32,604 bases of DNA from Caldifarciminota bacterium (GTDB lineage Bacteria > Hydrothermota > Hydrothermia > B15-G9). The position numbers were made by a program, and so were the translations under genes. The stretch lies in NCBI GenBank assembly GCA_027037615.1, contig JALVZN010000074.1, positions 1-32,604 on the forward strand. The letters run 5' to 3'. The notes below the pieces were generated by a model. The model had not been told where the DNA came from and ran no database searches. It saw only the letters and a program-made list of their open reading frames with translations. Positions 15,601 through 32,604 of the stretch are shown here, piece by piece (position 1 is the stretch's first letter; each line of letters opens with the position of its first letter).

Positions 15601-18600
15601 AGGATCGGATGTGCACCCATGTTCAAATCGCCCAGCGACATGTCGGATTTGATACCCTTGCCAGCGAAGAACAACCCGTCGGCGAAATACATGCCGTCCT
15701 CAGCCATGCTCGGCTGTGAGCCGCTCCAGTTCCATTTCGACCAGATGTAAAGCGCATTGTTGTTGGCATCGATGGCCATCGTCGCAAGCCAATCCGTGAG
15801 CGAATCGTCGGTCAACGCTCTCGGCTGTATCCATCCGCTTCCACTGCGCAGGTCTTTCATCGTGTAGAACAGATCGCCGTCGTAGCCCTGATAGCCGCGC
15901 CAGAACACCATCACAATGCCCTGATTCGTAACCTGCACGATCGGTTGATATGCGAACTGCGGCGTCTCGTAAATCAGCTCAGGCGTGCTCCAATCGCCTG
16001 TCGTGTCCATCATCGAGAAGTAAAGCCTGTCGATGGTGCTGTCCTTCGCCGTCCACACCACAATCGCGCGACCGAGCGAATCGAAGACCACCGATGCGTT
16101 CTGCTCGGCCTCCTGTGCGGTCGAGGTCAGCATCTCAGCCGAACTCCACGAATGGCCGTCCCAGATGGCATATTTGAGGTCGGTGTCGAATGTCGTTGTA
16201 AAATCGCCGTCGCCATCGTAGAGCCACACCGCAATCGCAGTCCCATCAGGCGAATATGCGACTTTGACCATGCAATCGGCACCGTTATCGACATCGGTGC
16301 CCGGAATCGGCGCTGGCTCACTCCAATGAGTGCCGTCCCAGTAGGTGTAATAGACCGCCCAGCTCCGCCTATCCGAAATGGAATCGCTCAAAATCTTGTT
16401 CCATGCGACGAGCACCTGTCCCTGAGGGCCGACCGCGACGGATGCAAGCCCATCGGGCAGGCTGTCGCTGATGAGCGGCTGGACATCGCTCCACTCGCCC
16501 GTCGTGTGATTCCAAACCGAATAGTAGATGTCCTGAGTTCTGAAGATTGCATTGAGGTCTTTGACATAGCCCGGTGCGGTGTTGGCGCTCCACACAGCTA
16601 TCGCATCGCCGTTTGGCATGAACGCAACCACAGGGTCAAGTTCAAACCTGTCGTTTGAACCGCTCTCGATGGGCTGCGCAGTGCCCCACGATGTGCCATC
16701 CCACACGGCGTAATAGACATCCGGATCCGCACGGCCCGGCGTCGGGTCGTTGTCGTGTATCCAGACGACCATGGCATGTCCGCTGTCGTCGGTCGCCATG
16801 TATGGGTTTGGCAGGATGTCGGGCAGGTTGAGTGAATCAAGCCGTGCAAGGAGAATTGGCATCCTCTCAGCAAGTATCCGTTCGCCCTCGGTTCCGAAAG
16901 CCCACGGCCCAAGCGTATCCTGATAAAGCGTTCCTGAAATCCAGCCCCATCCGAGCGAACCTACGAGTTCAAACGGGACCACAAATGCGCCTGATAGGTG
17001 GAAACCCGGCGGCGGATAGAGCAATCTGGACTCAATGTCGGCGGTAGGATGTGCGACCATGGCGACACTTGCCACTCCGAATGCAACCTCGACTTTCGCC
17101 GATAGGTCAACGAGTATCTCCACTGCAGGGTCGATGAAGAGGCTATCGAATGTGAAGGATGAGTTTATGAACGCACCAACATCGTCTATCCTTGGCCTGA
17201 CTTCACCGCCAAAATCGACTCCTACTGTTACAGGGATACCGTGAACCAGAACATTCAGATCCTGATGGACTTCTGGCAGGACGAACGGGTCGAACTCGAA
17301 CGGCTGGTTCATGTGGAACTCTATCTGATCAAACTCAAGCGACCACGGGTCAAGATAGCCTGTAACAACGACATAGTGCTCTCTGCCAAGCTCTTCGAGT
17401 ATCTCATAGATGTTGCCGCTGAATATCTCGTTGCCCAAAATCACGATATCGCCGCCGAAATCCGGGTTGAACGGGATCGGGTCGCCGCCTCGCTCAAGCG
17501 GAACGCTGGCATTCAGTAACGCACCGGCCGCAATCCTCGTCTCAAGTCTGCCCAAAAGAAGGACATCGGACGGAATGAAATAATCGCCGTTTAAATCTAT
17601 AGGGAAATACTGCTCGCCGGTCCTGTAAACGCCTGCATCGTAATCGAAATAGAAATCACAGCCGAAATCCTGCATGTAAACCTGAAGCCAGTGCGGCATC
17701 GGAGCCGTGTTCACGGTGTAAGTAACGGGTTCGGAGGGCGTTCCGCTGAGGTCATAGGCAACGACTTTGAGCGGCACGACATGCGGAAGCTGCCCAACAT
17801 CGTATTCCACGCTCCAGCCGTCCGACGGGTCGTCATCGACAAGTGTATCGTCCTCAAAGATGAACATCACTCTCGCAACATCGTTCGCACTGTCAGGGTC
17901 CGTTACCTGAGCGGTAAATCGGTTGATAAGCTCGACGCCTGAGATGTAGCGGCCGAAGATGTCCTCGTCCGGATCGCCATCGTATTCTGCGACGACAGCC
18001 TGAACTATCGGTCCGCGCTCACGGAATGTCTCCGAGATGATGTTGTTCTCCTCGTTCGTCTCAGGGATGATGTTGTCAGGGTCAACCGAGACATAGAGCG
18101 TGTAAGACGGAAACTGAGGCGTCCAGAATGTCGAGACCGTCGTCGATTGGCCGGGATCGAGTTCATCGATGACGCTGTCGGCGATGGTGAGGAGCTCGCC
18201 TGTGCCTGCCGTGAGGTCCTCCACCATGAACCTGACGGGTATATTCCGCGCCGTATCGCCATGATTGGCGACAGTCGCCGTAATCAGAAGCCCATCGTTC
18301 TGATGCTCGACAACGAGGTCAGTGGGCGTGAGGTCGGAGGAGTATCTCACCTGACGATACAGCATCTGGATCTCCTCATCCGTCAGCGGACGGTTGTAAA
18401 CCCTGATCTCGTCAAGAAGACCGTTGAAAAGTTCGTCAATACTCCAACTGCTTAGAGCTATGTAGTTATTTGTACGCGTGATCGGGCGAGGAATGTTCGT
18501 GATGTCACTGGGCTCCCCATCAACATTGAAGGTGGGCATTCTCTCGCCGTTTATAAAGATGTCAACATGAAGGAACCCATCGTCCCCCGGCGTTCCCCTT

Positions 18601-20303
18601 GCCACTACATGCATAAGCTGGTTTCTCACTATGCCATTGAAAACTTCTACTTTCTGTGTGTGTGAATTTAGAGGGCTTCCCGGACGGTAAACCTCAAAAC
18701 ACAGGTTATTTGTTTCCTTATGCTGAGCAAACAGTATGTTATCATTTGCAGCTCCGTTGCCCAGCTCGATGATTCTTCCCCAATATCTTGGTTCCTCGAA
18801 AATCACCCATGCGCTTACGGTTATGCCATGGCTGAAATCTTCAGGGAATTCATTCAATTCTATGTAGTCGTGTTCTCCGTCGAAATGGAAGGCGTTTCCG
18901 ACAGCACCGGGAACACAGGTCGGATTGCCATGAACAATCCCATCGTGTCCATTACCCGAATTATCCGCAGCCGTGCAGTCGTCAAAAGACCAGTAAGCCA
19001 CAAGTCCGGTCTGAAGAGGCTCGATTATGGTAACATTCCATAGTGAAAATGTGGAATCCCCCCTTGAATCAAAAGCAATCAATTTGACCACTTTAGTCCC
19101 GGTTCCGTGGAAATAAATCTCCAGAGTTATAGTGTCCTCGTCCCCGTGTAATTGCTGTGTCTGAATAAGTGAATCGTCGAGGAACCATTTTGCATAGCTT
19201 AATCCATTACTGCTCAACAAAATTGCAGAAAATCGTTGCTGCTGATTTTCTAACACTGTCAATTCATGAGATTTAGGTTCCAGAACGGCAATATAAGGTT
19301 CCGAATAACACACAACCACTTCTGGATCGGGACGTGAGTATTTCCTGACAATTATGTCATCAAAAAGCCAATCGCCATTATAAGGATTCGCCCAATTGTC
19401 CTTTTTTACCCCCAATATCACAAAGTTAAATGAATCATTTTGTGGAAAATCTAAGCTAACGCTTCTAATGGTATCATTACGACTTATTAACTCGATGGAA
19501 TCACCCCATGAGGAAATTTTAAATGACTGCCATTCACTAATGTTTAAATTATGGTAAAGGACGGTTTCACCGTTTAACTGCGTTCCTTTGAATAAACCCA
19601 CAGCGTTATTCACTCCGTTTGAGCATCCGTATCTTGCTCCAAATTTAGCCGGGGTGTAAGGCTCCCACCATCTAACCCAACTTTCAGTTGATTTAGAGAT
19701 AATTACGCCGCCATCTGTCCCCCCTTTATATCTAATTTTGTAGATAAGCTGAAGCGGTTTTCCCGTGGATTCTCTGAATGAAGCGATCGCTTTGGTCACT
19801 CTTAAGTTGTCATAGCTTAATACTTCCAGCGCAAAACTTTGTCTGGTGGAGTCGTAAACAACATATCCACTTCCGTTTCCAGAAGATTCTATTCTCCATT
19901 TTGCAGTGTCCAATTGGCCAGATTCAAAATCTTCAAAGAACTCAAAGACGACATAACCGTTCGATTCGCTCTGCAAGTTTGGATCGCCATAGGTCAAATT
20001 TAGAATCTTTATTCCATTCGCTGGAATGTGTGGAACTTTCACCCAGATTAAGCTCGTGTCTCCCGGAACCCACCTTTCGATCCAATAGGGCAAAGTATCC
20101 CCGTTCTCCGGATCGATTATCCTTACGTCTCTTCCATCGCTTGTAGCCTGTGAATAATCGAAACTATCGGGAAGTATAGTTATCAACACCTGATAATCTA
20201 ATAAATCGTCGGTGTTGGAGAGATTATTTATGACAACCATGTTGCTACCAGCCCATAAGTTCGAGATACCCACAAATATCAGGACTTTTATTAAATTTTT
20301 CAT
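12618..20303 (-). CDS. Giant exported multidomain protein (DUF2341-like, LamG-like, CARDB repeats, propeller-like repeats, Por/T9SS-like C-terminal domain)
   Basis: 2561 aa. Signal peptide; N-terminal ...LLDYQVLITILPDSFDYSQATSDGRDVRIID...; LamG-like LVAYWSFDDCTAADNSGNGHDG...GNAFHFDGEHDYIEL; repeated PDL...GDTV.V.V.V.N.G...ESNN (CARDB-like); C-terminal AIYDIAGRRIWQTTRNLEAGYHDVNLRAELRSGVYFIMVSTPFGKANTKVIISR. SD GAGGAGGTGAT. Confidence 0.88.
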   Translation of the reverse strand: MKNLIKVLIFVGISNLWAGSNMVVINNLSNTDDLLDYQVLITILPDSFDYSQATSDGRDVRIIDPENGDTLPYWIERWVPGDTSLIWVKVPHIPANGIKILNLTYGDPNLQSESNGYVVFEFFEDFESGQLDTAKWRIESSGNGSGYVVYDSTRQSFALEVLSYDNLRVTKAIASFRESTGKPLQLIYKIRYKGGTDGGVIISKSTESWVRWWEPYTPAKFGARYGCSNGVNNAVGLFKGTQLNGETVLYHNLNISEWQSFKISSWGDSIELISRNDTIRSVSLDFPQNDSFNFVILGVKKDNWANPYNGDWLFDDIIVRKYSRPDPEVVVCYSEPYIAVLEPKSHELTVLENQQQRFSAILLSSNGLSYAKWFLDDSLIQTQQLHGDEDTITLEIYFHGTGTKVVKLIAFDSRGDSTFSLWNVTIIEPLQTGLVAYWSFDDCTAADNSGNGHDGIVHGNPTCVPGAVGNAFHFDGEHDYIELNEFPEDFSHGITVSAWVIFEEPRYWGRIIELGNGAANDNILFAQHKETNNLCFEVYRPGSPLNSHTQKVEVFNGIVRNQLMHVVARGTPGDDGFLHVDIFINGERMPTFNVDGEPSDITNIPRPITRTNNYIALSSWSIDELFNGLLDEIRVYNRPLTDEEIQMLYRQVRYSSDLTPTDLVVEHQNDGLLITATVANHGDTARNIPVRFMVEDLTAGTGELLTIADSVIDELDPGQSTTVSTFWTPQFPSYTLYVSVDPDNIIPETNEENNIISETFRERGPIVQAVVAEYDGDPDEDIFGRYISGVELINRFTAQVTDPDSANDVARVMFIFEDDTLVDDDPSDGWSVEYDVGQLPHVVPLKVVAYDLSGTPSEPVTYTVNTAPMPHWLQVYMQDFGCDFYFDYDAGVYRTGEQYFPIDLNGDYFIPSDVLLLGRLETRIAAGALLNASVPLERGGDPIPFNPDFGGDIVILGNEIFSGNIYEILEELGREHYVVVTGYLDPWSLEFDQIEFHMNQPFEFDPFVLPEVHQDLNVLVHGIPVTVGVDFGGEVRPRIDDVGAFINSSFTFDSLFIDPAVEILVDLSAKVEVAFGVASVAMVAHPTADIESRLLYPPPGFHLSGAFVVPFELVGSLGWGWISGTLYQDTLGPWAFGTEGERILAERMPILLARLDSLNLPDILPNPYMATDDSGHAMVVWIHDNDPTPGRADPDVYYAVWDGTSWGTAQPIESGSNDRFELDPVVAFMPNGDAIAVWSANTAPGYVKDLNAIFRTQDIYYSVWNHTTGEWSDVQPLISDSLPDGLASVAVGPQGQVLVAWNKILSDSISDRRSWAVYYTYWDGTHWSEPAPIPGTDVDNGADCMVKVAYSPDGTAIAVWLYDGDGDFTTTFDTDLKYAIWDGHSWSSAEMLTSTAQEAEQNASVVFDSLGRAIVVWTAKDSTIDRLYFSMMDTTGDWSTPELIYETPQFAYQPIVQVTNQGIVMVFWRGYQGYDGDLFYTMKDLRSGSGWIQPRALTDDSLTDWLATMAIDANNNALYIWSKWNWSGSQPSMAEDGMYFADGLFFAGKGIKSDMSLGDLNMGAHPILPDLVVSSSSMTVSERFASPGDTVTVGAVVWNGGDVASDTVTVRFTYGHPDSGGMLIEPEFRIALGPDSAETLTVQWVVQEGINRIYVVVDPEDVENELSESNNIASIDCYAVADLAVDSADISFDNPNPLVGDTVIVTVAVHNIGPVASDSVLVAFYEGNPNDSASVLLDTVRLGSIAPDGYLEAETRLAATYGEHRIFVVIDPDDEQLEPDESNNMAFARLKVLPDLMVNEIDFDTTGFDTVGLIAVVANDGGVSAGAFTMAFYDGDPMLGGELIDSVVLDSMSAFSEDTVSIPWSPTPGQHEVFVVVDIDDSVMERNEFNNRLSASIFVHGRPDLTISPDEIEVSDDHPHSGDTITITAWVRNNGLANALAAFVRLYLVDGDTSLIDGVVLPVVEAGDSAEAQFDWIIPDDFTGTARLMVYADPNDSIPESDESNNSAMTRVFVNTPEIVALPEQFDVVVDSAVTVSETLIVQNTGSADLIFNIAVDYSEKSHLDALLDGAKPDTGWLYISIACDTVPENDSTMVEIAMSSAGLSFGYHLATLEIESNDSANPMVEVPVSFGLRPPAPELISPINSVFVTDSMPTFVWSIDSGFDGTFVLQIALDSAFTSNLIEISNISDTSYTLEQPLADTVYWWRVKAVTSDGLEGDFSEAGMFVVDAHAPSVPALVAPVGGIWLSDTALQLQWSSVTLNNKGKFYGRMAVSALGRKPGISHGSGAGVLSVGREFELGAKPTPVYYVVEILSGGSTVLIDTVDTNAMAVELSEGRYEWHVMAFDEAGNASEWSPIDSFGVDITPPSVDSMTVLSDTSWFFGPFDVDAWISDNLSGVGSAWLFWSVDGSPFDSVAMSLSGGVWSGEIPALGDSANYTVSYFVRAADNAEPANVTTSDTVGFTATLIEEARGQIPSEFELLGVAQNPVRGSVIGLKLAIPSTCDAKFAIYDIAGRRIWQTTRNLEAGYHDVNLRAELRSGVYFIMVSTPFGKANTKVIISR

Positions 20304-20318
20304 AAAATCATCACCTCC

Positions 20319-20786
20319 TCATTGATTTCCAAAGAGAAGATACCCAACGAGCGCAATTATTAACAGAACTCCAACAGCAGTGAGGATTTCTGTAAAATGG
20401 TATATGAAAATCCCCAACGCAATTATCCCCAGAACTACTTGAACAACAGCTGACCCTGATTCAGCAGCCATGCCAATAAGCAGAGCTATGAAAAAAGAAG
20501 CCGCTAAACCTTTCCAGAATTGGTCCCATGTGGATGTTGAAGTCGAATCTTTCGGATGTGATTCGTCGGAACTGCTGGAAGGAAGTTCTATGTCGTAATC
20601 AGGTTCGGGATAATAACTGCTCGGAGTGTAACTTTCACTGCCCGAATATGTTTCGGGTTCGGGATCATCAACCTGCACATAAATGTAACCTTTGCCGTGA
20701 CACTTAGGACACGGCCTCGGCCCTATGGAAGTCATAATATACCTCAACCCACCACATGTCGGACATTTCACCTTTTCATAAGCCAT
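20319..20786 (-). CDS. Membrane-anchored protein with DnaJ-type zinc-finger motifs
   Basis: Start reassigned from 20804 to ATG 20786 (SD GGAGGTGACATC): MAYEKVKCPTCGGLRYIMTSIGPRPCPKCHGKGYIYV, Ser/Pro/Glu-rich linker, then hydrophobic segments. Stop lies next to the SD of the giant gene. Confidence 0.8.
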   Translation of the reverse strand: MAYEKVKCPTCGGLRYIMTSIGPRPCPKCHGKGYIYVQVDDPEPETYSGSESYTPSSYYPEPDYDIELPSSSSDESHPKDSTSTSTWDQFWKGLAASFFIALLIGMAAESGSAVVQVVLGIIALGIFIYHFTEILTAVGVLLIIALVGYLLFGNQ

Positions 20787-20885
20787 GATGTCACCTCCAT
20801 ACATTTTGTGTTTTTTCGATACTGAGCATCAACCGCTTGCGTTTCTTAAACTTATGTTCTCAAAACCTTCCGTAATAAAACCAGA

Positions 20886-20901
20886 GGCAACAATCGTGCC
20901 A
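20886..20901 (-). promoter_or_regulatory. sigma-54 promoter (TGGCACGATTGTTGCC) of the zinc-finger/giant-protein operon
   Basis: Matches TGGCACG-N4-TTGC with GG-N10-GC spacing, about 100 nt upstream of ATG 20786. Confidence 0.85.
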
Positions 20902-20943
20902 TAAGGGAATGGCGCAATTTCGGGGGTTTTAGAAGCCCCTCGA

Positions 20944-20958
20944 GTCTCATTTTGATAC
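20944..20958. promoter_or_regulatory. Palindromic site A1 GTCTCATTTTGATAC
   Basis: One-mismatch version of GTCTCA-TTT-TGAGAC; centre 51 bp upstream of the -24 GG at 20899-20900. Confidence 0.7.
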
Positions 20959-21012
20959 CTCAATGTCGGCGGTGTCCGTCGATGATGCTGTGATACAAAG
21001 CTTTACCCTATG

Positions 21013-21027
21013 TCTCATTTTGATACT
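21013..21027. promoter_or_regulatory. Palindromic site A2 GTCTCATTTTGATAC
   Basis: Same motif, 69 bp from A1 and 20 bp from A3. Confidence 0.7.
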
Positions 21028-21032
21028 AAAAG

Positions 21033-21047
21033 TCTCACTTTGAGACC
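21033..21047. promoter_or_regulatory. Palindromic site A3 GTCTCACTTTGAGAC
   Basis: Perfect GTCTCA/TGAGAC arms. Confidence 0.75.
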
Positions 21048-21132
21048 AAGAAGGGGGTTTCATAACCGTAAAACCATCGATAAAACCCAGCTTATTGACA
21101 GATGCGATGGATACCTCCATTTTAGAGACCAA

Positions 21133-21180
21133 ATTCACCAAAATTGATACTAATTCGGTGAGTTTATTCACCAAAATTGA
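21133..21180. repeat. Direct repeat ATTCACCAAAATTGA, two copies 33 bp apart
   Basis: Identical 15-mers at 21133-21147 and 21166-21180, just upstream of the ATPase start. Confidence 0.85.
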
Positions 21181-21202
21181 CATCTTTCAGGGAGGACTTG
21201 AG

Positions 21203-22357
21203 ATGATCGTCGAAAGGACAATTTTGAAACGCATTGAGCAATACCTATTTAAGGGCAAAATAATCGCCATCTACGGGGCAAGGCAGGTCGGAAAGACAAC
21301 CCTTGTGAAAGAACTTATCAAAAAATTCCCCGACAACTCCATTTACCTGAATTGTGATGAACCGGATGTCAGGGTGCTCCTGAGCAACAAAACATCCACT
21401 GAATTGAGGCACATTGTTGGAGATAAAAGACTTGTGGTCATAGACGAGGCTCAAAGGGTGAGGGACATCGGGATCACCTTAAAATTGATGGTGGACAATT
21501 TCCCCGAAAAGCAGATAGTCGTAACAGGATCATCATCTTTCGAGCTAACGGGGAAAATAGCTGAACCTCTGACGGGAAGAAAAATCGATTTCATCCTTTT
21601 CCCTTTCTCTCTTGAGGAAATTTCTCAAATCTATTCCCTTTTAGAGATCAAACGGCTTCTCCCGTCGTTTCTGGTTTATGGGATGTATCCCGAAGTTGTT
21701 CTGAAACCTGAGCTTGCCCGTGAAATTTTGAGATCGATCGCTTACAGCTATGCCTTCAAAGACATCTTCCAGCTCTATCAGCTCAGGAATCCGGAGGTTT
21801 TAGAGAAACTCCTTCAGGCACTTGCGCTTCAGCTCGGCGCCGAAGTCTCCTACAACGAGCTTTCAAGTCTGGTAGGAGTTGATAAGAACACTGTTGCAAA
21901 TTACATCCGCATCCTCGAACGGGCGTTTATCACCTTCAAACTCCCTCCGTTCAGTCGGAACCTCCGAAACGAATTGAAAAAGCTGAGAAAAGTTTTCTTT
22001 TTCGATGTCGGCGTGAGGAATGCATATATAAACAACTTCAATCCGATAGACCTCAGGGACGATGTCGGTAAGCTGTGGGAGAACTTCGTGATACTGGAGC
22101 GAATGAAACTGCTGTTAAATCACGGCATTCATGCCAGTTTCTACTTCTGGAGGAGAAACCGGAAGGAGATCGACCTGATTGAGGAGAGAGAAGGCAAGCT
22201 CTACGCATACGAAATCAAATGGAGAAAAAGGAAAGCAAGGCTCCCCGTAGCCTTTCAGGAGGCCTATCCCAACTCACAGTTCTCCGTGATCACACGGGAA
22301 AACTTCCTTGAGTTTTTGCTGCCCGATGGGTTTAACAAAATCACAGAAAGCACCTGA
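21203..22357 (+). CDS. AAA_14/DUF4143 family ATPase
   Basis: Start reassigned from 21095 to ATG 21203 (SD GGGAGGA): MIVERTILKRIEQYLFKGKIIAIYGARQVGKTTLVKELI...LVVIDEAQRVRDIGITLKLMVDNFPEKQIVVTGSSSFEL... DUF4143-like C-terminus YFWRRNRKEIDLIEEREGKLYAYEIKW. Confidence 0.9.
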   Translation: MIVERTILKRIEQYLFKGKIIAIYGARQVGKTTLVKELIKKFPDNSIYLNCDEPDVRVLLSNKTSTELRHIVGDKRLVVIDEAQRVRDIGITLKLMVDNFPEKQIVVTGSSSFELTGKIAEPLTGRKIDFILFPFSLEEISQIYSLLEIKRLLPSFLVYGMYPEVVLKPELAREILRSIAYSYAFKDIFQLYQLRNPEVLEKLLQALALQLGAEVSYNELSSLVGVDKNTVANYIRILERAFITFKLPPFSRNLRNELKKLRKVFFFDVGVRNAYINNFNPIDLRDDVGKLWENFVILERMKLLLNHGIHASFYFWRRNRKEIDLIEEREGKLYAYEIKWRKRKARLPVAFQEAYPNSQFSVITRENFLEFLLPDGFNKITEST

Positions 22358-22474: not shown

Positions 22475-24508
22475 CTAAAATTTAACGAATTTACCGGATA
22501 TCTTTCGCTTAGAAGTCGTTATGAGGTAGAGGTATTTGCCTGACGGGAGGACGGATATGTCCGCATCGTATTTGAGCACACCGTCACGATTTATGGAAAT
22601 CTCTTTGACCAACCGCCCAGCGACATCGTATATCGCCAGTTTCTCGACCCTTTCGTTCGGCAGGTTAAACCTGATCCTCAGCTTTTTGCCCGTGTAGTAA
22701 ACGAGGAGATTTTTGGAGAAAGGCTTCGTTTTTTGCTCAGTCTCCTTAATCCCCGGAGTCGGAAGCACATAACCAACATATGGTACTTCGTATATTCCCG
22801 GTGTGTTGGTTATAAAAGTCATGTTGCCAGATGTATCCATAGCTACTAAATTCTTATCTCCGTGCCATAGTTCATGACCTACAAAAATAACATCGTTTAA
22901 GCCAGGAACAACGGCTATTGTTGTAATTCCCTCAGTATCAGCAAGGGCTGTTATTTGATGCACATTATTGCCTTCTAAATCCATCCAATACGCATCCATC
23001 GGCGAATAGTAGCTGTAATGGTTACGAGCGAAATATATCCTCTGGGTGTCGCCGGATATTACAGGTGTCCAATCAATTACATTGTTGTTTGTTAATTGCT
23101 GGATGGTTGAGACATCCACGGTTCCATCGCGGTAGATCGCTTTGTAGATCTCATAGGTGGGTGACCAACATCCGTCTTGGGTATTGAACAACACGACCGA
23201 ATCATTCACAAAAGTCATCGCTTTAGTGTAAGTCGCTTCACCATCTCCATAAGCAGCTGGGTCAAGGACAAGATGGTTATCGGAACCGTCCATTTTTACG
23301 GCATAAAACTTCCTGATACAGCTATGCCATGGCTCAATATAGATTATATTTCCATCCGGATGCCAATATTCTGCCTGCCTTACCCCTCCATTATATGAAT
23401 TTGGCGTTGGAACCTCGAATTCTATTCCAAGATTCATGTCCAGAATCCACAGATGTCGATTTTCCTCAGGTGAAGACTTAGGCGCTTTTGAATAAGCAAA
23501 ATACCTTCCATCTGGAGATAACACACCAGCAAATTCATCCATATTGGGATCTGTCAAGAAGGGGATCAATGTATCATTGTCAACATCATAAACATACACA
23601 TCCACTGACTGATTGTTTTCGACATCCGCATAAAGAATAAATACTCCCCTTCTCGGCAGCTCGATCGGTTGGATCCTTGCTTCGCCGTTCAGGAAGTTGC
23701 GCAGGACGGTATAAGCCACCGGGCCGAGGTATCCCTCATTTTCCGACATCAATGCCACATCCGCCCACGGAAACGGGAGAACATATCCGTTGCCAACGAG
23801 ATACAGATAGATTTCAGCAGTGTAGATATTCCTCTCACCGTCACAAACGCCGGGATAGTTCACACATTGATCGCCCTGCCCCTGATAAGGCCATCCGTAA
23901 GTTGTTTTTAGCTCAACATATCTGACAGTATCGTAAGGCGCAACAACAGGCTCGAAGTTCACTCTCTGGGTAACGACAGGATGGTTGACCACGGTTATCA
24001 GACTTGGCCCGGGCTCCTTACGGTGCTGATAGCTGCTGTCGGGCTGCCATTCAGCGATGTGCCTGAAGATGGGATGCGGGTCAAGGGTGCTAACCAGATA
24101 CTTCGCCTCATAAGATGAAGGGGTGTAAGACCCAACAGTCGCATCCAAAAGCCCCATGTATTCGCCCACAAACAATCCATAATAGGAGATCATCAAATTG
24201 CCGCCCTGCTCCAGAAAATCCTGTAACGCATTGAGAACTGTCGAGTTGTTGAACTGTATAGGCTCTCTGTCCGTGTGAATCCATATCACATCGATATTAT
24301 CGAGGCTGTAACCCGAAATTATGTCGTTGACATCAAGCACGATAGCGGTATCTGTCGGCGGGTCATTGAGGATATGGCTTATGAAGAAGTAGGCAGCGTT
24401 TTCCTCCTCAGTCATGTTTGTTTTGTCAGGCACAAGCAAGGCGCCCTGATAGGCGCTTAACTGCGCTACCGCCATTATTATGAGACTCACAATTGCCAAC
24501 CTTCTCAT
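22475..24508 (-). CDS. Exported TolB/PD40-like propeller protein with Por/T9SS-like C-terminal domain
   Basis: 677 aa; signal peptide; DEFAGVLSPDGRYFAYSKAP, AEYWHPDGNIIYIEP, PVISGDTQRIYFARN; C-terminal KLAIYDVAGRLVKEISINRDGVLKYDADISVLPSGKYLYLITTSKRKISGKFVKF. Confidence 0.82.
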   Translation of the reverse strand: MRRLAIVSLIIMAVAQLSAYQGALLVPDKTNMTEEENAAYFFISHILNDPPTDTAIVLDVNDIISGYSLDNIDVIWIHTDREPIQFNNSTVLNALQDFLEQGGNLMISYYGLFVGEYMGLLDATVGSYTPSSYEAKYLVSTLDPHPIFRHIAEWQPDSSYQHRKEPGPSLITVVNHPVVTQRVNFEPVVAPYDTVRYVELKTTYGWPYQGQGDQCVNYPGVCDGERNIYTAEIYLYLVGNGYVLPFPWADVALMSENEGYLGPVAYTVLRNFLNGEARIQPIELPRRGVFILYADVENNQSVDVYVYDVDNDTLIPFLTDPNMDEFAGVLSPDGRYFAYSKAPKSSPEENRHLWILDMNLGIEFEVPTPNSYNGGVRQAEYWHPDGNIIYIEPWHSCIRKFYAVKMDGSDNHLVLDPAAYGDGEATYTKAMTFVNDSVVLFNTQDGCWSPTYEIYKAIYRDGTVDVSTIQQLTNNNVIDWTPVISGDTQRIYFARNHYSYYSPMDAYWMDLEGNNVHQITALADTEGITTIAVVPGLNDVIFVGHELWHGDKNLVAMDTSGNMTFITNTPGIYEVPYVGYVLPTPGIKETEQKTKPFSKNLLVYYTGKKLRIRFNLPNERVEKLAIYDVAGRLVKEISINRDGVLKYDADISVLPSGKYLYLITTSKRKISGKFVKF

Positions 24509-24639
24509 GACACCCTCCTATGTTTTTGATAAGCCTCTGTTTTCGAGTCATCAAAATTCGACCAGAGCCTCCAAACTCATCTTTAAACATGCACGGTTCT
24601 TAAACTTATGTTCTTAAAACTCACCGTAATAAAACCAAA

Positions 24640-24655
24640 GGCAATAATCGTGCCA
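24640..24655 (-). promoter_or_regulatory. sigma-54 promoter (TGGCACGATTATTGCC) of the 22475-24508 gene
   Basis: GG (24654-24653)-N10-GC (24642-24641); near-consensus. Confidence 0.88.
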
Positions 24656-24697
24656 GATAAAAACGACGGTATTTCGGGGTATTTTTGGGGCGATTCG

Positions 24698-24712
24698 TCT
24701 CATTTTGAGACC
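24698..24712. promoter_or_regulatory. Palindromic site B1 GTCTCATTTTGAGAC
   Basis: Perfect palindrome arms; centre 51 bp from the leftward -24 GG. Confidence 0.78.
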
Positions 24713-24764
24713 GAAGTGTTAGGTTACTATGAGATATTTATCTGACGCACAATCACTTAAGCCG

Positions 24765-24779
24765 TATCTCATTTTGAGA
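24765..24779. promoter_or_regulatory. Palindromic site B2 ATCTCATTTTGAGAC
   Basis: One-base variant, 20 bp from B3. Confidence 0.72.
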
Positions 24780-24784
24780 CCGAA

Positions 24785-24799
24785 AGTCTCACTTTGAGA
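24785..24799. promoter_or_regulatory. Palindromic site B3 GTCTCACTTTGAGAC
   Basis: Perfect arms; centre 51 bp from the rightward -24 GG at 24843-24844. Confidence 0.78.
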
Positions 24800-24841
24800 C
24801 CGAAATCGGAAGCAAAGTCGTTGAACCTCAGGATAACATAG

Positions 24842-24857
24842 TGGCATAAAAGTTGCC
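24842..24857 (+). promoter_or_regulatory. sigma-54 promoter (TGGCATAAAAGTTGCC) of the lipoprotein-kinase-EBP operon
   Basis: GG-N10-GC spacing; expected TSS about 3 nt before ATG 24871. Confidence 0.78.
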
Positions 24858-24870
24858 CTAAAATTTAAAT

Positions 24871-26313
24871 ATGAAGGTGAAAAATTTAATCCTTTTGATA
24901 GCGATAAGCCTTTTCGTAGGGTGCAAAAACAGGCAAGGGAAGGAGGGAGCTGTTCGGATATCGCCCTCCATCGAGGAGCGCGTGTTGCTGAACGATGTTT
25001 TTGTCTCAGAAGCGACAATAGTCCAGGATCTGGATGGAAACCTGTATCTCCTCCTCAAAAAGATCAACTCCATCGAGTGCTACCGGATAGTAACCGAAAG
25101 GGACAGCATCAATCTCAAATTCCTGTGGAAACACGAGGGGCTTTCCGTAATCCCGCTTATCAACTATCAATCGCCCGATGCGAGAACCAATTACATCGTG
25201 GCTCTGCCATCCGCAAATCCTGTAAAAAGGATGAGGGATGGGGACACCACATTTAAAGTCAGAGTCTATTCCCTCAAACTGGAGACAGGCGAAATCGTTG
25301 ACAGTGCATTTTACATTTCAACAAGCGGAGCTATGCCCATAAAAGACTTGTGGTTACAAAGAAATTGGCTGCTCATCCCTGACAGGAATGTACACATAGA
25401 CATCCGGCTGCCATCTAAATATGTGATATTTCAGATCGATAAAAACGGGAGATTTAAAAAGCGGCTCGATGTGCCATTCGGAGGACAAATTGTTTCCGTT
25501 GCAATTGTAGGCGACAAATACGCGCTTGTAAGCACTGCACTTCTTGGGAACCTCGTTCGGACAAAAATCTCAGGTGTGTCCGATTGGTTTACAGGCGTAT
25601 TTTTGATTTCTCTGGACGATGGGAAAATCCTTGACCATTTAGTGGTGCATTCCGGAACTTACGGTGATTCTCGCATATACCCCACATCTTCGGATTCCGA
25701 ATGGGTGATCTACGACAGGTGTTATTTCTGCGAGCGATGCGGTGCCACAATTTATAAGGTCAGAATTGCCCCTCTCAGAATTGTTAACTCCATCTCTTTC
25801 GACGAAGGTGTGTCCGTTGGACGGCCTTTCAGGTTCAAAGGCAAACTCTTATATCCCTCGTTCCTGATAAATTCAAAGAAACTTCTCTTGCTGGACGAAA
25901 ACCTGAAGATATTCAGGGAGATCCCCCGCCCTAAATACGAATATGACTCCGTGTATGTTATGCATTACACATCGCTTAAGAGCAGGAGAGGCACGGATGT
26001 TTCTGTCAACGCCGTTCAAATAACTGGCAATGAATATCCGGCCATTGTTGTGGAATTTGACAAGAAAGGGCAAATTGTGAGAGATCCATCACATGCTGGA
26101 GGCCGGGATGTTGAGGGAAAACTCCAGAATGTGCCCGAAGTGTTTGTTTATCTTCCACCCTACGATAGGCTAAACGGGCGGGCTGTTCTGGACAAAAAGG
26201 GAGCATTCCCGGCTAATGTTCCCGGAATCAAAGACAGGCTGGTTGTCTTCTCTCCCATGCAATATAACAAGCTGGTGCTGCGTGAGTTAAAGATTTTCGA
26301 TAAAAGCAGATGA
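24871..26313 (+). CDS. Lipoprotein, possibly beta-propeller, first gene of the two-component operon
   Basis: 480 aa, lipobox-like MKVKNLILLIAISLFVGCKN; repeated beta-strand units; 16 bp from the kinase gene. Confidence 0.75.
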   Translation: MKVKNLILLIAISLFVGCKNRQGKEGAVRISPSIEERVLLNDVFVSEATIVQDLDGNLYLLLKKINSIECYRIVTERDSINLKFLWKHEGLSVIPLINYQSPDARTNYIVALPSANPVKRMRDGDTTFKVRVYSLKLETGEIVDSAFYISTSGAMPIKDLWLQRNWLLIPDRNVHIDIRLPSKYVIFQIDKNGRFKKRLDVPFGGQIVSVAIVGDKYALVSTALLGNLVRTKISGVSDWFTGVFLISLDDGKILDHLVVHSGTYGDSRIYPTSSDSEWVIYDRCYFCERCGATIYKVRIAPLRIVNSISFDEGVSVGRPFRFKGKLLYPSFLINSKKLLLLDENLKIFREIPRPKYEYDSVYVMHYTSLKSRRGTDVSVNAVQITGNEYPAIVVEFDKKGQIVRDPSHAGGRDVEGKLQNVPEVFVYLPPYDRLNGRAVLDKKGAFPANVPGIKDRLVVFSPMQYNKLVLRELKIFDKSR

Positions 26314-26329
26314 ACTAAGGGAGGGCAAA

Positions 26330-28693
26330 ATGGTGTGGATTTTGACATTGACCCTGTTATCGTGGACGCCCTTCGGCGTCAAGATGTTCAATTTGAGTGA
26401 CCCGCCAATCGGCGTATTCAGGACCGAAAATCACATGTATGTCGTCTCGCACAACGGCACAGTTTACAAAATATCTTTCAAACCAGACATAACTGATTTT
26501 GCGGAAATTTCGGACTCTTTCAAACTGCCGCTCACGAAAATCGTTCCCGGACGGAGGGGTAAAAGCGGCAATTTTAAGGTCCACAACATCGTTTACTGGC
26601 GCAAACGGCTCGTGGTTCTGACCGATTACGGCGTCTATGTCTCGGACACAGGTGAGGATTTCCGAAAATGGAAACCGATAACCATGGGCCGCGCGGTGGA
26701 GATAGCGGGGGATTCGGAAAACCTGTTCATTTTGTTTCCTCAAAAAGTGGTCAGGGTCATCGAGCGAAACGGGGAACACTCGATCGAGAATGTCGCGAAA
26801 GTCAACCTAACGGAACCCTGTTTCTCAAGCTTCATCGATGGCACTCTGTTTTTTGAATCATCTGACACGCTGTGCATTGTGAGCGGGGATTCCCTGAAAA
26901 GGTTTGCTTTACCGGAACCGAAGGGGAATGTAGTTAAGTATAATGTGCTCGTAGAATTCATTGTGAGAAAGCATTATCCCGACATCTTCGGAAATGGCAA
27001 GTTTGTTGCAAGGGATAGCTCGTCGGGTTACACGGTGGCTTATATCGGAAGTTATGAGGAGAAGGGGCGTGAAAATCCCAGAGCTTTCAGCCATTATCTG
27101 GTTCTGGATAGCAGCTTCAACGCAGTCGATACCTTTTCCATTCCCGACTTTGAGCATACGGATGTCATTTTCAATGAAGGGTATTTCTGGATAATGGGCA
27201 TAAAATCCATCTTTGGAGGGGCACTTTACGGACTTCGAGGAAATCCACCTGTCCTAAAAGACTCGTTTTCTACAAAACTCATGTCATTAACAGGTATTCC
27301 TTCAGATAAAGGAATCAATTTTGCTACCTATGTGCCAAGTTTTGTGGCCATTTTCCAAAACGAAGCACCTGAACATTTGTATTCATCGTTCATTGAGTTT
27401 CCTGAGATATTCTGGTTCAGCAAGAAACTGCCGTTTCTACACGATGGGCCATCGGATTTTGTCATGTTCAGCAGCTCGTTCAACCCCACTCTCACTTTTG
27501 ACGAGCGCAACAACGGTATTGTCCTCCTCGTGCCACGAATCGATGAGGCGCTCGGTTACGCCGCATCGCTTGTCAGCTGGGCGAAAAGGCATCAGCACAT
27601 CTGGAGCGCGGGGAAGGCGCTCGATAGCCTCGATGCCGCTATGGAAATCTACCGCGTCCTGAAACCCGATACGCTCGCACACCTTTTCAAGCTCAGAGAG
27701 AGCCTTTACCGACAGGTCAAACTCATAAAGTTCGTCAAAACCAACTGGCTCAAGAGCCTGCTTGCGGTCATCTGGGTGCTGACAGTCCTGATGTTCCTGA
27801 GGGCAAAACGGACTTTCCGCAAATTCAGGTATCAATACGCGCCGCTGCCATCTGAGGAGACGATCAAAGGCGTTATGAGGATCCCGATCTTTCACAAGTT
27901 CCCATCGCTCTGGCAGCCGATTGTTGAAAATCATGGCTTTGACTGCGATGTCCTGAAGGATGAAAACCTTTACAAAAACCTCCAGGAGTCGCTCCGCATG
28001 CTTGTGGCAATGGAAAAGGATTTCCGCAATGTGCATCCGCGCTGGGAATCGCTTTTCAAACGGACAAAATGGAATTTGCTCCTGCTCTCAAACATCTTCA
28101 GCCTGCATCGGCTCTGCAGATTGGGCGGCATCTTCAAAAATCTACTGAAGCGTTCGACTGTCAGCCTTCTCAGGCACATCGCAAATGTGAGGAATGAACT
28201 CAAGAGCATGCTTGAGAAGGAGAGAGCCGACATCATTCAGGGCGCTCTGCTCCCGGTTGTGGAGGACATAAGAAAAAACTATGCGGCTCAAGGTGTTATC
28301 GTGAATACGGAGATCACTCAGCAGGCATCTTACGCTTTCTATCCGTCGGAACTCGCGAAATTTCAGTGTTGCTTCAAGGCCATCCTCGAAAACGCCATAG
28401 AATCCTATACCGATGGCAATACGATAAAGAAGATAGACATCAAAGTCAGAGCACTGCCGGATGTGCTGGAAATATCGATCAGAGATTACGGAAAAGGACT
28501 GCCTCCGCAGATGATCTCAAAGATATTTGAACCGGGATTCTCCTACGGCAAACAGGGCAAAGAGCGTGGTTACGGATTGGCCGGATGCGATGAACTCTTC
28601 AGGAAACACGGCGAAATCGAGGTGAAATCGGAGCCCAACAAAGGCACATCGTTTAACATAAAGATCTATTTTCTGCCGAAAAGGAGGCGATAA
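26330..28693 (+). CDS. Sensor histidine kinase with exported propeller-like sensor domain
   Basis: 787 aa; signal/TM at N-terminus, repetitive beta domain, TM SLLAVIWVLTVLMFL, possible H-box LLRHIANVRNEL, HATPase motifs AILENAIESY, RDYGKGLPP, KERGYGLAG. Confidence 0.85.
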   Translation: MVWILTLTLLSWTPFGVKMFNLSDPPIGVFRTENHMYVVSHNGTVYKISFKPDITDFAEISDSFKLPLTKIVPGRRGKSGNFKVHNIVYWRKRLVVLTDYGVYVSDTGEDFRKWKPITMGRAVEIAGDSENLFILFPQKVVRVIERNGEHSIENVAKVNLTEPCFSSFIDGTLFFESSDTLCIVSGDSLKRFALPEPKGNVVKYNVLVEFIVRKHYPDIFGNGKFVARDSSSGYTVAYIGSYEEKGRENPRAFSHYLVLDSSFNAVDTFSIPDFEHTDVIFNEGYFWIMGIKSIFGGALYGLRGNPPVLKDSFSTKLMSLTGIPSDKGINFATYVPSFVAIFQNEAPEHLYSSFIEFPEIFWFSKKLPFLHDGPSDFVMFSSSFNPTLTFDERNNGIVLLVPRIDEALGYAASLVSWAKRHQHIWSAGKALDSLDAAMEIYRVLKPDTLAHLFKLRESLYRQVKLIKFVKTNWLKSLLAVIWVLTVLMFLRAKRTFRKFRYQYAPLPSEETIKGVMRIPIFHKFPSLWQPIVENHGFDCDVLKDENLYKNLQESLRMLVAMEKDFRNVHPRWESLFKRTKWNLLLLSNIFSLHRLCRLGGIFKNLLKRSTVSLLRHIANVRNELKSMLEKERADIIQGALLPVVEDIRKNYAAQGVIVNTEITQQASYAFYPSELAKFQCCFKAILENAIESYTDGNTIKKIDIKVRALPDVLEISIRDYGKGLPPQMISKIFEPGFSYGKQGKERGYGLAGCDELFRKHGEIEVKSEPNKGTSFNIKIYFLPKRRR

Positions 28694-28696
28694 GAC

Positions 28697-30061
28697 ATGT
28701 TCCTCGTGCTCGACGACGAGAATTATGTTGAAAAGGTGTTGAAGAGCGCTTTTCCGAACAGGGAGATCGTGCACACCCGCACATCCAGACAGTTTATAGA
28801 AAAGTTGAAGAGTTTTAAGGACATACGGGCTGCCGTTGTCGATCAATACATCGAACACGGGAGCTATCCGGAATCCGAATTCCTGTCGGATTCGCCGGAA
28901 TATGAAGGCTTCTCCGTCGCCGTAGAGGCCAGAAAATTGCGACCCGATGTCCCTGTTTTCCTTTTGACCAGATTTGCCGAAAGCTCAATCTTCATGAGAG
29001 CATATCAATACGGGATAATCCCGATAGAATTCGTTGACGAAAAGTTGACCGCCAGAATTCTGAGGGAAAGGATATTGAGGACCGACCCTGAGATAACGAG
29101 GGAGCTTGTCAAAGAATATCGAAAATTGGGCTGGGTGGCCGAATCGCCTAAATCCAGAGAGCTGATCTGGGAGATAGAGCACAATTACAAGGATTCCGAT
29201 GAACCGCTTCTGATCACAGGCGAGATCGGGGTCGGCAAGACCCTGCTGGCGAAGATCATCCATAAGCGCTCAAAGAGGGCCAACAGCCCGGTAATGACTT
29301 TTGTGATAAGCGCATACCCCAGAGAAAACCTGTATTACATGCTGTTTGGTGCCGCTCCGCGCGCTTTCACAGGCGTGAAAGGTGGCCCGGGATTGGTCGA
29401 AACGGTGGGAGAAGGCACGCTCATCCTTGACGAGATCGGCGACCTGCCCATCGAAGTCCAGCTCCACTTGCACACTCTCCTTGAGGAGAGAAGGTTCAGG
29501 AGGATGCAGGAGTCCAAAGATAGGATCTTCAAAGGCAGGATTATCGTCCTGACGCACAAAAACTTGAAAAATCTGGTCAAACAAAATCTTTTCAGGGAAG
29601 ACCTGCTGAGCCGAATAAGCGGCCTGCACATCCACATCCCGCCTTTAAGAGAACGGAGAGAGGACATAAGGCCGCTTCTGGAGTTCTATTGCGACGACAT
29701 GGAGTTCACCGACAGGGCTATGGAGCTGCTTGTGAACGAGTATCCATATCCTGCAAATGTGAGGAGCCTCAAGAAGATCTGCCAGTTTTTGAGGCACGAG
29801 AACAAAAACCGATTGGTCACGCTGGACATAGTGATCAAGGCAATCACCCACTATGAACAGGATGAACCCACGCATGAAAATGGCTTAAGCTTTGAGAGGA
29901 TACTGGATTGGATGCTGGAGAACGGTATAACACTGAAAGCATTGAGAGACAGCATCGTGAAGGCAGGCTACGAGAAATTGGGTAAAACATGGAACGAAGA
30001 ATGGGAGAAACTGGGCCTCACCAAAGCCACATTTTACAGGATGCTGAAATCGGATAAATGA
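28697..30061 (+). CDS. Sigma-54 dependent response regulator (receiver, AAA+, C-terminal HTH)
   Basis: 454 aa; receiver MFLVLDDEN...AAVVDQYI...FLLTRF; Walker A GEIGVGKTLLAK; RAFTGV at the GAFTGA position; Walker B GTLILDEIGDLPIEVQ; FREDLLSRISGLHIHIPPLRERREDI; C-terminal HTH-like TKATFYRMLKSDK. Confidence 0.93.
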   Translation: MFLVLDDENYVEKVLKSAFPNREIVHTRTSRQFIEKLKSFKDIRAAVVDQYIEHGSYPESEFLSDSPEYEGFSVAVEARKLRPDVPVFLLTRFAESSIFMRAYQYGIIPIEFVDEKLTARILRERILRTDPEITRELVKEYRKLGWVAESPKSRELIWEIEHNYKDSDEPLLITGEIGVGKTLLAKIIHKRSKRANSPVMTFVISAYPRENLYYMLFGAAPRAFTGVKGGPGLVETVGEGTLILDEIGDLPIEVQLHLHTLLEERRFRRMQESKDRIFKGRIIVLTHKNLKNLVKQNLFREDLLSRISGLHIHIPPLRERREDIRPLLEFYCDDMEFTDRAMELLVNEYPYPANVRSLKKICQFLRHENKNRLVTLDIVIKAITHYEQDEPTHENGLSFERILDWMLENGITLKALRDSIVKAGYEKLGKTWNEEWEKLGLTKATFYRMLKSDK

Positions 30062-30184
30062 GAAATGGGCTTCCTCACGCCCCAACTCGGCCGGAATTGG
30101 GTGTCGTGGCGAAAAAAAAACAACACCGGATAGCCCTGACCTCATTGCGATCCTGCCATCAAAATCGCTTCTCTACGGGCAATG

Positions 30185-30199
30185 GGCACGAAAATTGCC
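30185..30199 (+). promoter_or_regulatory. sigma-54 promoter (GGCACGAAAATTGCC) of the kelch gene
   Basis: GG (30185-30186)-N10-GC (30197-30198), near-consensus; expected TSS about 6 nt before ATG 30216. Confidence 0.83.
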
Positions 30200-30215: not shown

Positions 30216-31397
30216 ATGAAAAACGGAAAGATAGCGATAAGCGTGGCCCTGCTGATATGGGTGGCGGGGCTTTACGGCGAATGGAGCGAGATAAGTCACC
30301 TCAGAGTAAAGCGTTACGGGGCGGCGGCTGTAGTTGATGGCGACAGCGTGCTCGTCATCGGCGGCTTCACAACCGAGCGCCATCGAAACTATCCCACCGC
30401 GAGCGTCGAGGCGCTCAACGACATCGGTGGAGAATGGCATGACGGCGTTGAGCTCCCTGAACCGCTTGCGTTTTCGGGCGTGGCCGTATGGGGTGGAAAA
30501 ATTTTCGTATTCGGAGGGTTCAACAGCAACCGCGTGCCGACTGATGAAATCTACATGTTCGATCCCGACAGCGGATCGTGGCAGGATGTGGGGCCGATGC
30601 CAATGGGACTTGCGGCCTTTTCCGTCGTGAAAATCGACAGCTTCTTCTACCTGCTCGGCGGCGTCACGGTGGGGCGTGCATACAACCCGCTTGTGTTGAG
30701 GTTCTCTCCCACCGATTTCTCGTGGGATACGCTGGTGATCGAAAGCTGGGTGCCGCGCTCATACATGGGCGCCGCCGTCGTAAACGATACCGCTTACCTG
30801 ATGGGTGGCTTTTATTTCGGTCAAGTCAACTGGATTACGGTTTTCGACGGCCAATCGGTCGTCGGCACTTCCTCTATGCCGGAGGAAGTATCCGGCCTGG
30901 CTTCCACAAGCGACATTCTGGGCGAGATATTCGCAGTCGGCGGGTATTACGGACTTCAGGAAACCGACAGGGTGTGGAAACTCAACAGAAACGATTTGAC
31001 ATGGCAGGAGTTACCGCACATCCCGGAGCCGAGAGGGTTCTCATCAGCAGTGGTGTTCGACAACTCACTCGTAGTCATCGGCGGGCGGTGGAGGCGACAC
31101 GCCGTGGAGAATGTTTACGCGCTCTCGCTCAACTCGATCGAAGAAGAGCCGTCAACCGTTGAGCCCGAAAATGTTATCGTAAAAGCGCCCAACCCGCTGC
31201 GCCCATCCGACATGATAATCGTAAATGCACCATCCGATGGCTACCTCAAAATCTATTCGGCGTCAGGCAGGCTCGTGGCCAAACTCCAGATCCAGCAGGG
31301 CAACAACAGGATTCCGGTTGGCAGGCTCAACCTGCCTTCGGGCATCTACATCTACCGTTTTCGCAAAGTGAGCGGAAAATGGTTATTCTTGCATTGA
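30216..31397 (+). CDS. Exported kelch-repeat protein with Por/T9SS-like C-terminal domain
   Basis: 393 aa; signal peptide; VLVIGGFTTE, IFVFGGFNSNRVPTDEIYMFDPDSGSWQDVGPMP, YLLGGVTV, LVVIGGRWRRHAVENVYAL; C-terminal YLKIYSASGRLVAKLQIQQGNNRIPVGRLNLPSGIYIYRF. Confidence 0.87.
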   Translation: MKNGKIAISVALLIWVAGLYGEWSEISHLRVKRYGAAAVVDGDSVLVIGGFTTERHRNYPTASVEALNDIGGEWHDGVELPEPLAFSGVAVWGGKIFVFGGFNSNRVPTDEIYMFDPDSGSWQDVGPMPMGLAAFSVVKIDSFFYLLGGVTVGRAYNPLVLRFSPTDFSWDTLVIESWVPRSYMGAAVVNDTAYLMGGFYFGQVNWITVFDGQSVVGTSSMPEEVSGLASTSDILGEIFAVGGYYGLQETDRVWKLNRNDLTWQELPHIPEPRGFSSAVVFDNSLVVIGGRWRRHAVENVYALSLNSIEEEPSTVEPENVIVKAPNPLRPSDMIIVNAPSDGYLKIYSASGRLVAKLQIQQGNNRIPVGRLNLPSGIYIYRFRKVSGKWLFLH

Positions 31398-32145: not shown

Positions 32146-32161
32146 TGGCACACATCTTGCC
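32146..32161 (+). promoter_or_regulatory. sigma-54 promoter (TGGCACACATCTTGCC) of the 32201 gene
   Basis: GG (32147-32148)-N10-GC (32159-32160), 40 nt upstream of ATG 32201. Confidence 0.82.
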
Positions 32162-32200: not shown

Positions 32201-32604
32201 ATGATCAGGAAAATAGGAGTTCTGATAGCCCTCATGGTTGGAGCCACGATGGCTCAGACAGGCGGGATCTCCGGGCAGGTAACCGATGCTTTGAACGGCA
32301 ATGGGCTGCCCGGAGCCATCGTCAGGTTGTATCAGATCAGGGGACAACACCCAAGACCGGTGGCATGGACAACTACCCTGAACGACGGAAGTTACGAGAT
32401 CATGGGCGTTCCGGACGGTGCCTATTTCGTCAAAGCTCACAAATGGGGCTATCTCGACAGGTTCTATCAGAATGGAACAAGCTACGATGATGCTGACACG
32501 GTGTATGTCACTGATGGGCAGGTTGTTACCGACATCAACATAGCTTTGCCGCCGCGCGACAGCGGGTCAACGGGGAGAGCGGCTATAACGGGATATGTTT
32601 ACGA
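32201..32604 (+). CDS. Exported carboxypeptidase-regulatory-like domain protein, truncated by window end
   Basis: MIRKIGVLIALMVGATMAQTGGISGQVTDALNGNGLPGAIVRLYQIRGQ...TTLNDGSYEIMGVPDGAYFVKAHKWGYLDRFYQNGTSYDDADTVYVTDGQVVTDINIALPP; SD AAGGAGGT. Open to the window end, absent from the ORF track. Confidence 0.85.
   Translation, partial: MIRKIGVLIALMVGATMAQTGGISGQVTDALNGNGLPGAIVRLYQIRGQHPRPVAWTTTLNDGSYEIMGVPDGAYFVKAHKWGYLDRFYQNGTSYDDADTVYVTDGQVVTDINIALPPRDSGSTGRAAITGYVY

Follow-up and report, generated by a model that had tools for sequence, protein, structure and literature searches.

Results

The window analyzed here, the whole 32,604-nucleotide stretch of DNA, corresponds to a single complete contig in a draft genome of 2.06 Mb (G000). 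Its forward strand carries three consecutive genes putatively encoding an exported beta-rich partner protein (24871–26313; 480 aa, with the lipobox LFVGC), a membrane sensor (26330–28693; 787 aa) and an NtrC-type enhancer-binding protein (EBP; 28697–30061; 454 aa). The open reading frame coordinates leave 16 bp between partner and sensor and 3 bp between sensor and EBP, matching the tight packing described in a sequence-only reading of this DNA. All comparisons were made at the sequence level among draft genomes, including two relatives from the same genus (G001 and G002) and three from another family of the same order (G005, G007 and G009).

The sensor and EBP genes are neighbors in all five of these relatives, and the partner gene is present upstream in every genome whose contigs reach it (G000, G002, G005, G007 and G009). 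The G001 contig ends inside the sensor gene, and synteny was followed up to that break; in G005 the operon is split over two contigs, which were joined by a 125-bp overlap. Gene order is thus kept in five relatives spanning two families, and the proposal of a single co-evolving sensing operon, which a loss of this synteny would have undermined, stands. Together with this synteny, protein-level conservation and dN/dS values of 0.05–0.28 (G000 versus G001) indicate that the conservation is not due to chance. Searching with the DHp-like region of the sensor gave matches in 8 of 147 genomes of the phylum, six of which were already known operon carriers; the extra matches, a carbamoyltransferase-like protein and a 63-aa frame riddled with stops, were set aside as non-members, and no further convincing family member was found by this search.

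The sensor is composed of an N-terminal hydrophobic export signal, an extracytoplasmic beta-rich domain (residues about 20–400), juxtamembrane helices (about 404–460), one strong transmembrane segment (471–492), degenerate DHp helices and an intact GHKL ATPase domain (682–779; HATPase_c, PF02518, E=3.5e-17), which bears out the single main transmembrane segment and cytoplasmic ATPase domain originally proposed. Its extracytoplasmic domain matched no Pfam or NCBIfam family and no repeat family. An AF2 model of the sensor, built with one partial homolog as input, is of low confidence (pLDDT 46) and contains a strand-rich stretch at residues 84–193 (block means mostly 56–83), whose modeled strand pattern would fit four-stranded blades.

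The partner protein likewise had no Pfam or NCBIfam match. Its orthologs are 66% identical in G002 and 20–22% identical in G009, G005 and G007. The relaxed lipobox (LFVG-C) is present in G000 and G002, while the G005 and G007 proteins have a hydrophobic N-terminus without Cys; the G009 N-terminus was not readable and was left out of this tally. The description of the partner as a lipoprotein therefore applies to G000 and G002 but not to G005 and G007, and the predicted lipid anchor is a genus-level feature. An AF2 model of the window protein alone reached a pLDDT of 37.8, with strand-rich secondary structure at low confidence. Foldseek searches with this model returned, among other hits, many propeller chains (DDB1, LGI1 and WDR91; E about 1e-3 to 2e-2), matches that are weak because the underlying model is low-confidence, and a profile search of the PDB gave only weak WD40 matches (dynein intermediate chain, E=0.2). 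Shared ancestry of the partner and the sensor ectodomain was also considered and found no support in a profile comparison (probability 2.5). Of the scheme originally proposed, the exported sensor, its beta-rich partner and the EBP as output are supported by our data.

The N, G1, F and G2 ATP boxes that mark GHKL proteins are retained in six of six sensor orthologs. The phosphoacceptor column was located with hhalign, by global profile alignment against 40 H-box kinases, and at this position, K577 in the window (codon 28058–28060, forward strand), the sensor carries Lys in G000, G001, G002 and G005 and Arg in G007 and G009. K577 lies 111 residues ahead of N688, and in the reference kinases the His is mostly found 103–125 residues ahead of that Asn. 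No HisKA match was obtained in the sensor at E<=10, the sensor has neither an acidic residue after the His position nor the [ED]xx[NT] phosphatase pattern, and no His is common to the helices preceding the ATP boxes in the six-ortholog alignment. The G007 sensor is devoid of His from residue 556 to 682, regardless of how the H-box is aligned. The sensor therefore lacks the phosphoacceptor His of a functional histidine kinase, and the sole His conserved in its cytoplasmic part is H522 (codon 27893–27895, forward strand), which belongs to an FHK motif immediately inside the membrane. The dN/dS between G000 and G001 is 0.067 for the cytoplasmic part of the sensor and 0.05 for the EBP, which argues against a decaying gene, and 0.28 for the ectodomain, so that a fast-evolving ectodomain is joined to a degenerate core that is being maintained. 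By sequence, the sensor is a degenerate histidine kinase with a cytoplasmic part under strong purifying selection.

The EBP contains a Sigma54_activat domain (PF00158, E=2.4e-38). Its receiver keeps an invariant D6, D7, D49 and T91, with an insert after D49, and the conserved receiver Lys is replaced by Ile or Thr in six of six orthologs, so that it departs from a canonical response regulator. The AAA+ domain keeps the Walker motifs and the FTG of the sigma-54 loop in the variant form [AS]FTGV, in which the last Ala has become Val, and Fis-like HTH domains could be aligned to the C-terminal end. This combination of AAA+ domain with Walker motifs, GAFTGA-type loop and HTH identifies the protein as a sigma-54 EBP. 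RpoN was not detected in the G000, G002 and G005 drafts, though EBPs and sigma-54-like sites are present there. Since the sister genome G001 has it, as do 7 of the 10 genomes searched, an assembly gap is the likely, though unproven, reason for its absence from G000, and gaps probably also account for its absence from the G002 and G005 drafts.

Cis-elements and target genes, both missed by the sequence-only reading, are an addition of the present analysis. A sigma-54-like promoter, TGGCATAAAAGTTGCC (24842–24857, forward strand), lies 29 bp before the ATG of the operon, and the G002 operon has a perfect consensus, TGGCACACGACTTGCT, likewise 29 bp before its ATG. Further sigma-54-like sites in the window were TGGCACGATTATTGCC (24640–24655, reverse strand) before the divergent gene 22475–24508, TGGCACGATTGTTGCC (20886–20901, reverse strand) before the genes 20319–20804 and 12618–20303, GGGCACGAAAATTGCC (30184–30199, forward strand) before a kelch gene and TGGCACACATCTTGCC (32146–32161, forward strand) before a carboxypeptidase-regulatory-domain gene starting at 32201; the last two are conserved in G001. 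The five intergenic stretches with promoter orientation contain one such site apiece; the expectation from shuffles is 0.073 in total, and none of 2000 shuffles reached five. In G005, a sigma-54-like promoter also precedes a divergent T9SS-tailed gene. The -12 elements at 24842 and 30184, and at L048 1405 in G002, are very near the start codons, and from the expected start-site spacing these transcripts may be nearly leaderless.

Two clusters of palindromes, candidate enhancers, accompany these promoters. Upstream of the operon are GTCTCA-TTT-TGAGAC (24697–24711), 42 bp from the divergent promoter, the imperfect ATCTCA-TTT-TGAGAC (24766–24780), and, 20 bp in phase with the latter, GTCTCA-CTT-TGAGAC (24786–24800), 42 bp from the operon promoter. 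The second cluster has two copies of GTCTCA-TTT-TGATAC (20944–20958 and 21012–21026) and one of GTCTCA-CTT-TGAGAC (21032–21046). The 15-bp pattern GTMTCA-N3-TGAKAC has five exact copies in 2.06 Mb, all at 20944–21046 and 24697–24800 and less than 4 kb from the operon; the chance of this clustering under uniform placement (~6e-11) is indicative only, the pattern having been chosen after its copies were seen here. The layout of both clusters is the same, with copies at 42–43, 111 and 131 bp from the -24 element and a 20-bp step within pairs; tandem phasing of 20–21 bp is typical of EBP enhancers.

Relatives show related arrangements. In G007, whose EBP is 38% identical, four of five palindrome copies flank the operon, in 21-bp pairs. 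Off-operon copies in G001, G002, G005, G007 and G009 are inside coding genes, and four relatives without the operon have zero copies of GTMTCA-N3-TGAKAC. Upstream of the G005 operon there is instead a tandem TTCCCA-N3-TGGGAA in 20-bp phase (L052 7111–7147), and upstream of that of G009 a TCACCCA-A-TGGGTGA (L049 63). These different palindromes suggest that the enhancer sequence diverges together with the EBP.

The loci behind these control sites encode exported or membrane proteins. Likely targets, all on the reverse strand, are a secreted protein that combines PD40 propeller repeats with a T9SS type A sorting tail (22475–24508), a 2561-aa secreted protein with CARDB, DUF2341 and LamG domains and a T9SS tail (12618–20303), and a small zinc-ribbon membrane protein encoded by the first gene of the latter's operon (20319–20804). 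The product of 20319–20804 has 161 aa, a DnaJ-like zinc ribbon being followed by a hydrophobic membrane tail. Possible targets on the forward strand are the kelch propeller protein, which has a T9SS tail (30216–31397), and the carboxypeptidase-regulatory-domain gene, which is cut by the window end (32201–32602) and whose G001 ortholog has a T9SS tail. The type A tails of 22475–24508, 12618–20303 and the kelch protein score above the curated cut-off, and SprA, of the T9SS translocon family, is present in 10 of 10 genomes. The genome has 75 such tails, which predicts 1.2 in the window where three were seen, and the T9SS neighborhood was rejected as an argument by itself; since these tails are common, the link to the targets rests on the shared control sites. 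A SprA gene lies ~0.7 kb downstream of the EBP in G005 (L051 2–5083). SprA was dismissed as an operon-linked neighbor, the other relatives having none next to the operon.

Discussion

On balance, we think it somewhat probable that the locus is an autoregulated envelope-sensing operon whose EBP, under NifL–NifA-like direct control, governs large surface proteins as a small, local sigma-54 regulon. The partner and the extracytoplasmic domain of the sensor would read envelope or surface state, and a change there would pass through the juxtamembrane helices and transmembrane segment to an HK-like core that, judging from its residues, keeps the ATP site and has lost the phosphoacceptor His. This core could control the EBP through direct nucleotide-dependent contact instead of His-Asp phosphotransfer. 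The released or activated EBP would bind the tandem GTMTCA-N3-TGAKAC palindromes and drive putatively sigma-54-dependent promoters, both that of the operon itself and those of the divergent loci encoding type IX-secreted proteins. In its fullest form the proposal is of a transmembrane NifL: a kinase-dead pair, selected within one order, that relays an outside signal by contact to a sigma-54 activator with private palindromic enhancers and a local type IX-secreted set. We put this forward tentatively, as an idea that falls somewhat short of probable.

The sensor was earlier thought to be a kinase signaling to the EBP. Read as phosphotransfer, this idea loses its footing: Lys or Arg at the acceptor position in six of six orthologs, together with receivers missing the conserved Lys, leaves it unsupported, and a classical His-Asp relay appears unlikely. 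By analogy, NifL–NifA-like direct control would be the best model for sensor–EBP signaling. NifL is a GHKL/DHp protein in which phosphotransferase activity is absent and which grips the AAA+ domain of NifA directly (PMC12998174; PDB 9qq6). As in NifL–NifA, an HK-like GHKL/DHp protein is here paired with an EBP, and the residue losses in both proteins fit a pair of this type. Among solved structures, the best match of the sensor was chain A of 9qq6; the EBP matched chain C, the 'Nif-specific regulatory protein', though other EBPs scored higher. The sensor is not NifL itself: it scored 45 bits against the NifL equivalog TIGR02938, with a cut-off of 242, and has no PAS domain. NifL is a PAS-domain sensor reported to respond to oxygen, nitrogen and energy state (PMC12998174), whereas the input here would come across the membrane, and the EBP has a receiver where NifA has a GAF domain.

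Alternatively, the locus may encode a working three-component system like QseE–QseG–QseF, whose sensor has remained a kinase and phosphorylates D49 of the EBP through H522 of the FHK motif or, within the genus, through H569. The invariance of D49, D6, D7 and T91 in the EBP and the intact ATP boxes of the sensor are consistent with this, and H522, the only invariant cytoplasmic His, could be an unusual phosphoacceptor. However, it lies 166 residues before N688, far beyond the usual 103–125, and just inside the membrane. H569 is well placed in the genus, at 119 residues before N688, but is replaced by Pro or Asn in the other family, and the missing receiver Lys speaks against either route; we consider such a kinase unlikely. 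The retained D49 and acidic pair also make phosphorylation from another source possible, and the sensor might be a pseudokinase that pairs with or steers a true kinase acting on D49. DivL, which acts without kinase activity (PMC4211667), and a ChrS pseudokinase mutant, which functions through HrrS (PMC9491836), provide precedents, and eight HisKA matches elsewhere in the genome, seven of them over the cut-off, offer candidates. Yet none of the relatives read showed a second kinase gene next to the operon, and a tight operon with a local regulon points to a self-contained unit, which makes this explanation quite improbable in our view.

A further possibility is that the palindromes, which are candidate sites by sequence, belong to a different regulator and that the EBP of the operon acts elsewhere, as the differing G005 palindrome might imply. 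Intergenic copies nevertheless surround the operon in two families and are missing from relatives that lack it, and the tandem 20–21 bp phasing is that of EBP enhancers, so we regard a separate regulator as very unlikely.

Among known systems, the closest analogues are QseE–QseG–QseF for architecture and NifL–NifA for mechanism. The E. coli QseE–QseG–QseF operon likewise unites three genes, for a sensor, an envelope lipoprotein and a sigma-54 EBP; its lipoprotein contacts the sensor on the periplasmic side and controls it, and the output is envelope-linked (PMC6075780). In the locus described here, the lipobox is confined to G000 and G002. The gene order differs, QseE works as a kinase and QseF undergoes phosphorylation (PMC6075780), and the partner and sensor domain here have no match to a known family. 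The Qse operon is reported to lack transcriptional autoregulation (PMC6075780), whereas the operon here has its own sigma-54-like promoter and candidate enhancers. Caulobacter DivL shares with the sensor a kinase-like core in which the phosphoacceptor His has been substituted but the remaining boxes are retained; unlike the sensor, it has Tyr at that position and PAS domains, and works through the single-domain regulator DivK (PMC4211667). In PorY–PorX–SigP with PorA, type IX secretion genes are likewise under the control of a two-component system and a surface CTD protein acts upstream of the sensor, but this system uses an ECF sigma factor instead of sigma-54 and controls secretion machinery genes, not adjacent cargo genes (PMC4800418, PMC7712824).

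If direct control by a transmembrane NifL-like sensor is correct, the two halves of a two-component system can each lose phosphotransfer residues and yet remain a membrane signaling pair under purifying selection. Sigma-54 would also join the controls of type IX cargo, where PorXY and an ECF factor are the regulators described in the literature searched. Because cis-sites and targets are defined exactly, synthetic DNA would allow the idea to be tested directly in vitro, with no need for a culture of the organism.

The control regions at 20805–21094 and 24509–24870 agree in palindrome spacing and promoter core and have similar leader sequences, and together look like a duplicated promoter–enhancer module. 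An AAA_14/DUF4143-type ATPase gene (21095–22357) adjoins the operon region in G000 and occupies the operon's equivalent place beside the control region at 20805–21094. A similar gene lies immediately upstream of the operon in G002 (L048 142–1383), and this gene is possibly a mobile hitchhiker.
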